NCBI RefSeq assembly: GCF_023238205.1
Contig: NZ_CP096659.1
Coordinates: 3,303,626-3,367,625, forward strand
Direction of reading: 5' to 3'
Length of the DNA: 64,000 nucleotides
From: Halorussus limi
Lineage (GTDB): Archaea; Halobacteriota; Halobacteria; Halobacteriales; Haladaptataceae
Below the pieces are notes generated by a model. That model saw only the letters and a list, made by a program, of their open reading frames with translations. It was not told the origin of the DNA and ran no database searches. The position numbers were made by a program, and so were the translations under genes. This document shows positions 19,399-19,585 of this stretch, piece after piece (within the stretch, counting starts at the first letter, position 1; every line of letters starts with the position of its first letter).

Positions 19399-19423
19399 AT
19401 GCGCGGGACCGGATTCGAACCGG
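19399..19423. repeat. Direct copy of the tRNA-Leu 3' end (att-like scar)
   Basis: These 25 bases are identical to 19500-19524, the last part (T arm and acceptor 3' strand) of the tRNA-Leu gene. Beyond them the two sequences differ at once. Duplication of a tRNA 3' end is the usual result of site-specific integration by a tyrosine recombinase. Only 76 bases lie between the copies and no integrase is near, so this would be a remnant. Confidence 0.75.
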
Positions 19424-19500
19424 AGTCAGACGTGCTCGCTTGCTGTGCGCGACTGACAGGATTCGATTCGGTCCTGCTCTTCGCTCACTTCGGTCGCTCA

Positions 19501-19585
19501 TGCGCGGGACCGGATTCGAACCGGCGGACCCCTACGGGATAGCGTCCTAAGCGCTACGCCGTTGGCCTGGCTTGGCAACCCGCGC
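19501..19585 (-). tRNA. tRNA-Leu (anticodon UAG)
   Basis: An 85-base class II tRNA. Reading the minus strand, the acceptor stem GCGCGGG pairs with CCCGCGC followed by discriminator A; the T arm has GGTTCGAATCC; the anticodon stem TAGCG/CGCTA carries the loop CTTAGGA with anticodon TAG, reading CUA codons; a long variable arm follows. The CCA end is not encoded. No intron is seen. Its 3' end is duplicated about 100 bases further on. Confidence 0.95.

Follow-up and report, generated by a model that had tools for sequence, protein, structure and literature searches.

A duplicated tRNA-Leu(UAG) end in a haloarchaeal genome looks like one of a class-wide family of small, hairpin-bearing integrative elements

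Two kinds of site-specific recombination are relevant to the locus described here. Class II tyrosine integrases target the T-loop of tRNA genes, the mycobacteriophage Ms6 being one example in the available text of its description (PMC1762012). The attC site of integrons is presented, in the accessible part of another study, as a palindromic site in which structure is conserved over sequence, with two stems, an unpaired part and a variable tip (PMC4792948). The tRNA-Leu(UAG) locus considered below has features in common with both. Its duplicated tRNA end appears to belong to a small, independent mobile element rather than to be the scar of a large one, and we consider it likely that the repeat marks one of the non-coding integrative micro-elements of a class-wide family, which have a hairpin as their attP and are moved in trans.

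The window, by which we mean the whole 64-kb stretch of DNA that was analysed, is part of a 4.6-Mb genome (G000). We place this genome in the class Halobacteria on our reading of its sequence, on the match in Haloarcula and on the distribution described below. It contains the target gene, an intact tRNA-Leu(UAG) at 19501..19585 on the minus strand, which was found by ARAGORN and scored 44.9 bits with the Rfam family RF00005. The last 24 bases of this gene, together with the next T, recur without a mismatch 101 bp downstream (19399-19423). A first-pass annotation of this DNA had reported an exact 25-base duplication of the tRNA end with 76 bases between the copies, and this holds: positions 19399-19423 and 19500-19524 agree in 25 of 25 bases at that spacing. 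The second copy lies 3' of the tRNA and spans its T-loop half and the 3' strand of the acceptor. A 24-base pattern taken from the repeat, with up to three mismatches allowed, occurs at two sites only in the window, and a chance repeat was ruled out by 100 shuffles, none of which contained a match to that pattern. When the window was scanned against Rfam, tRNA was the sole family above the gathering score, and the small unit between gene and copy had no Rfam match.

The whole unit measures 101 bp (19400..19500, minus strand, as are all of its parts), beginning with the first base past the tRNA and closing where the displaced copy ends; these limits are given by the repeat period and by the same layout at other tRNAs and in other species. 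Its parts follow one another in the order of left segment, inverted tRNA 3' end, short hairpin core and direct tRNA 3' end. The left segment (19478..19500) is of a short form, and G014 and further members of the genus have a similar segment at this tRNA. The inverted arm, T' (19459..19477), is an imperfect reverse complement of the tRNA 3' end that folds onto the direct copy and is tRNA-specific across the family. The hairpin core (19425..19457) has the P2 stem GTCAG-T-CG / CG-T-CTGAC, with a T.T mismatch, and a loop; it is identified by a match to the hairpin model R1 at 19412-19469 (59 bits) and by covariation of P2 in relatives. The direct copy, T (19399..19423), is the displaced gene end, 25/25 identical to 19500-19524, and is attR-like. 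In the hairpin as a whole, T' and T make up the outer stem P1, which is followed by an internal loop, by the inner stem P2 of about seven positions with its T.T mismatch, and by a tip of variable length. The unit in the window does fold as T'-core-T in single-strand DNA folding, with an only modest z of -1.75, 9 of 200 shuffles being equally good. It is a short variant with a short core, and the core-only model R2 does not return it at E<=0.01. Across the family the units are about 100-170 bp long and non-coding, and some stand in tandem. At the genus loci that were read, the trailer between the tRNA and the inverted arm is often itself a hairpin. Left segments (for example those of L020 and L047) often form an inverted repeat of their own, which is nested and whose ends are T-rich and A-rich; at some tRNAs the left segment recurs behind the last copy.

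R1 is a covariance model of the hairpin, and 10 of its 24 training sequences come from the window's own genome. Hits in that genome are therefore circular, and the check lies in other genomes and in R2. With the stricter filters (E<=1e-5), R1 matched 281 of 292 Halobacteria genomes and 73 of 77 genera; a laxer search of the 11 genomes that were missed added three at E<=0.01, leaving eight of the 292 without a match. In a draw of 196 genomes from the phylum, R1 was found in 31 of the 33 closest ones (own, same genus or same order) and in none of the remaining 163, 145 of which were counted without being listed individually. Within the genus, represented by 18 genomes, a search with the locus gave numerous additional short matches, and on reading these the same layout was seen in several species behind tRNAs for Leu, Val, Arg, His, Asp, Gly, Tyr, Phe and Ser, and some of these tRNAs carry two units in tandem. 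The genome of the window has units at ten tRNAs, and all ten of its R1 matches adjoin a tRNA. At tRNA-Leu(UAG) itself, 15 of the 18 genomes have at least one unit (two in three of these) and three have none. In a comparison of cores from genus members only (84 of 156 distinct cores), the cores did not group clearly by genome or by tRNA, so that a recent spread is without support.

A virus or plasmid carrier was ruled out, as viral contigs and phage records were negative and the sole matching plasmid is a tRNA array. Pattern scans of the viral contigs gave 0 and 8 stretches, none of the eight being a convincing R1 match (best E 0.14), and 0 records of the phage collection matched. The plasmid belongs to Haloarcula halophila and has 22 tRNAs near a TROVE-domain gene; here the core is flanked by GTCGG and TTCGAATCCGAC, within the T arm of a sequence that on our own reading of the letters appears to be tRNA-Cys-like. 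Dense tRNA arrays of similar order occur both on this plasmid (L235, with the 22 tRNAs) and in the genome of the window (L086, on the short contig C4, 131700-136400, with 13 tRNAs).

The units lie behind the 3' ends of their target genes, which are tRNAs in nearly all cases, and each unit closes with a copy of the gene end that it follows. Because R1 contains the T-loop arms and may favour tRNAs, location was checked in three ways. In three closed genomes, 38 of 44 R1 matches (E<=1e-5) lie no more than 1 kb downstream of a same-strand tRNA in the Rfam list, and two others adjoin a tRNA with the core flipped, so that 40 of 44 are beside a listed tRNA. One of the remaining four is at a tRNA-Leu seen by ARAGORN and missed by the Rfam list, two are at displaced tRNA 3' fragments, which we read as the right ends of islands, and one is at the 3' end of aspS. 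A unit is carried by 48 of the 140 tRNAs in these genomes, and about two thirds are without one. The second check used R2, the core model without the tRNA arms, which found 39 matches (E<=1e-3) in a set of four genomes; as assigned by reading the positions by eye, 36 of them are at intact tRNAs, two at tRNA 3' fragments and one at aspS. Finally, a same-strand tRNA lies 24-455 bases upstream in 161 of 170 deduplicated hits from fetched loci, which are mostly top-scoring ones (65 and 59 loci were used, without L111, L116, L139 and L171, whose hits are already covered by other loci; 185 rows became 170 on removal of 15 antisense duplicates). Several of the nine hits without such a tRNA are cut by the edge of the locus or stand behind a tRNA fragment. 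Two others (L218 and L224) fall in a dispersed repeat of G023, about 245 bp long and away from tRNAs, that holds a similar hairpin core. In G029 (L285:1420-1610 and L305:1480-1640), the core is inverted between arms of unchanged orientation.

The copied ends are those of the tRNAs beside them. Over the 161 units with a same-strand tRNA, the direct copy matches its own tRNA in a mean of 20.4 of 22 bases and other tRNAs in 14.1, and it is exact in 66. The boundaries of the copy can be seen in an identity profile aligned at the gene end (148 of the 161 units): identity is 0.89 at position -21 and 0.93-0.99 from -20 to -1, while it is 0.49 at -22 and near background further to the left; on the right the last base still has 0.72, and past it identity is about 0.4. 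The shared block thus reaches from the T-loop to the gene end, as in the T-loop (class II) tyrosine-integrase elements. The inverted arm also follows its own tRNA, which it fits better than the mean of the others in 151 of 161 units by gapped alignment; an ungapped test was weak (13.3 versus 12.1). At tRNA base 57, the direct copy has the base of the tRNA in 133 of 140 cases and the inverted arm in 128 of 136.

A good illustration of how the gene end is replaced is given by aspS, which is filled in G095 and empty in G294 of the same genus. The sequence past the G095 unit is the native aspS end of G294, and the G095 gene, when read directly, now ends in a different allele that encodes the same last residues. 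The gene thus has a restored end, and its native one was displaced. Of 11 aspS loci searched with the core model, three have units (G095, G188 and G057). Other aspS loci (L317, L319, L321 and L324) have repeated aspS ends or short hairpins without the canonical core, as if the end of aspS were a hot spot for small insertions. For tRNA-Leu(UAG), the flank of the empty G002 site aligns past the copy in G016 (score 42) and not ahead of it (13). This pair is weaker than that of aspS, and the other tRNA-Leu(UAG) pairs tried were too diverged. An empty site, a restored gene and a displaced native end, as expected of a T-loop integrase element, are thus seen together at aspS and less strongly at the tRNA.

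These results bear on how the duplication was first understood. The att pattern that the first-pass annotation saw in it stands as far as the form is concerned, since both the block from T-loop to gene end and the empty/filled pairs are those of site-specific integration at a tRNA 3' end; as the mark of a larger element now lost it is not supported. The sequence between the repeats, which had been taken for an excised or eroded element, is instead a complete unit of the class-wide family, whose members are similar in size and have a conserved, covarying hairpin. It had also been held that an old, decayed tRNA gene would be suggested if distant genera that lack elements showed this layout too. 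The layout is present in such genera, and it indicates a recurrent small element; a decayed gene was ruled out, as the copy extends only from the T-loop to the gene end.

The hairpin structure is under constraint. In an alignment of 24 units (27 sequences less L036, which is read in reverse, and L045 and L049, which have odd arms), 92.0% of cells are paired over the 16 pairs, as compared with 85.0 +/- 0.8 in shuffled alignments, and pairing drops to 48.4% or less when the partner is slid by one column. For the inner stem, 65 of 80 non-redundant cores were aligned (70 of them, less the two cores of L124, L164:1637-1680, L203:824-872 and L137). All seven P2 positions have changed on both sides, and there are 74 double-change cells as compared with 19.5 +/- 4.5 after shuffling, a number that 0 of 500 shuffles reach; as the sequences are related, these shuffle counts are not probabilities, and the slid controls, which keep the relatedness, nevertheless fail to pair. 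The T.T position is unpaired in 49 of the 65 cores, and the loop varies in length.

A hairpin conserved throughout a class could also mean a function for the host. It would then be an RNA element in the trailer of the pre-tRNA, acting for example in termination or 3' processing and kept by selection on the RNA structure, and the strong covariation, the class-wide presence and the position directly behind tRNAs on the same strand are all what one would expect of it. We nevertheless find this quite unlikely, as about two thirds of the tRNAs do without a unit, a single tRNA can have anything from 0 to 2 units within one genus, the core is flipped at two tRNAs, and units are also found at the aspS 3' end and inside the tRNA-like sequence of a plasmid. 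Moreover, an RNA role would not call for the gene end to be copied with a limit at the T-loop.

No more probable is the origin proposed in the first-pass annotation, in which a large tyrosine-integrase island in the tRNA was reduced to its two ends by an internal deletion. The shared T-loop-to-end block does have the form known for class II integrases, as far as the available text of PMC1762012 describes it, and islands do occupy tRNA-Leu(UAG) in the genus. The insertions seen at this tRNA in the genus share longer blocks: a 26-kb island in the tRNA-Leu(UAG) of G013, with a Phage_integrase gene beside the tRNA (L017:295-1719, L051), has a shared block of 52 bp that reaches the anticodon arm. 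In G017, an insertion of 1.4 kb (L274:1741-2709) that contains a TFB-type transcription factor gene and little else separates the tRNA from its displaced 3' part, and the unit is found beyond the insertion, behind the displaced tRNA fragment; the unit was therefore not left by such insertions. Against the island scar it can also be said that the unit stands outside in the island cases, behind the displaced fragment (L128, L267, L270), that the same small unit and core occur at many tRNAs in almost every genome, and that among the loci read none was noticed in which genes separate the tRNA from the hairpin.

Hardly credible, finally, is replication slippage with template switching at the self-complementary T-loops, in which quasi-palindrome correction would keep the arms matched, for although arms do change in concert with the tRNA and stems do remain paired, it leaves unexplained the core common to tRNAs, aspS and genera, the sharp boundary at the gene end and the replacement of the aspS end by another allele, and the often unpaired T.T position is at odds with constant correction.

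For an integrative micro-element, the events may be pictured as follows. A small circle with its own version of the gene end would recombine at the T-loop with the chromosomal gene, and in doing so would restore the gene and push the native 3' end downstream. A tyrosine recombinase provided in trans would probably catalyse the integration, as suggested by the targeting of T-loops, which is that of a known class in the available text of PMC1762012, and by the fact that no gene fits in the unit. The T'-core-T hairpin would probably serve as the attP. More speculatively, it may do so as a folded single strand, a proposal that draws on attC sites acting in this manner, as described in the accessible part of PMC4792948. 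The cores flipped at two tRNAs would fit recombination between the inverted arms. Neither a circle nor an excised unit was seen among the sequences analysed, nor was a recombinase linked to the units. A wider and more tentative idea, possible but in our view doubtful, is that Halobacteria have an integron-like system, with the tRNA T-loop as its platform and attC-like non-coding cassettes that would be integrated as folded single strands in trans, forming arrays behind tRNAs and aspS and persisting through most of the class.

The comparison with integrons and with host-Xer elements draws in part on common background, to which some of the names of the attC boxes and the details of CTX-phage and IMEX belong. 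The units share with integron cassettes and attC a palindromic site with structure conserved over sequence, the two stems with an unpaired part, the variable tip and the tandem arrays. They differ in that the short unit loci inspected showed neither an integron integrase nor attI nor gene cassettes, and in that their target is a gene 3' end that is restored. The host-Xer elements of the CTX-phage type and IMEX are similar in that two inverted sites on a single strand could together make up the attP and the enzyme is not encoded by the element itself, as far as the accessible part of PMC4792948 goes. The units are found not at dif sites but at tRNA 3' ends and aspS, without a virus genome, and for them the use of a single strand is only proposed.

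Short, non-coding, structured repeats of haloarchaea have been described before as the MITEs, PATEs and small mobile repeats of Haloquadratum, which the available text presents as transposon-like (PMC3119063), whereas the units copy a gene end and have site-specific targets. MITEs are dispersed in their insertion; matches to the units concentrate at tRNA ends, also with R2, the repeat in G023 being the exception. The motif behind tRNAs of Methanopyrus kandleri is a different short palindrome in the part of its description that is available (PMC5217627), and no matching hairpin at tRNA ends is described in the accessible parts of works on the Rep-Arvir origins of SNJ2-like viruses (PMC13107129) and on archaeal tyrosine recombinases (PMC8371274). 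A description of the element was not found in the open literature as covered by titles and the starts of abstracts, a scope that excludes most subscription journals.

The closest likeness is to the phages and islands with T-loop integrases, with which the units share the block from T-loop to gene end, the restored gene and the displaced fragment (PMC1762012; PMC4383910, each as far as its available text goes). The units differ from them in being about 100 bp long without an integrase or any other gene, in having a hairpin on one side of the core site, and in occurring at many different tRNAs per genome. At 101 bp, the unit in the window is too short for an integrase and is not classed as a T-loop integrase element for this reason. 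We would describe it as an integrative element with a known use of its target, unusual in being gene-free, hairpin-based and class-wide. For the prediction of att sites and islands in haloarchaea, this means that a repeated tRNA end alone does not imply an island. More broadly, 281 of the 292 genomes searched in a well-studied class have a structured element of about 100 bp that copies gene ends, which raises the question of which enzyme moves it and whether it uses single-stranded hairpins as integrons do.
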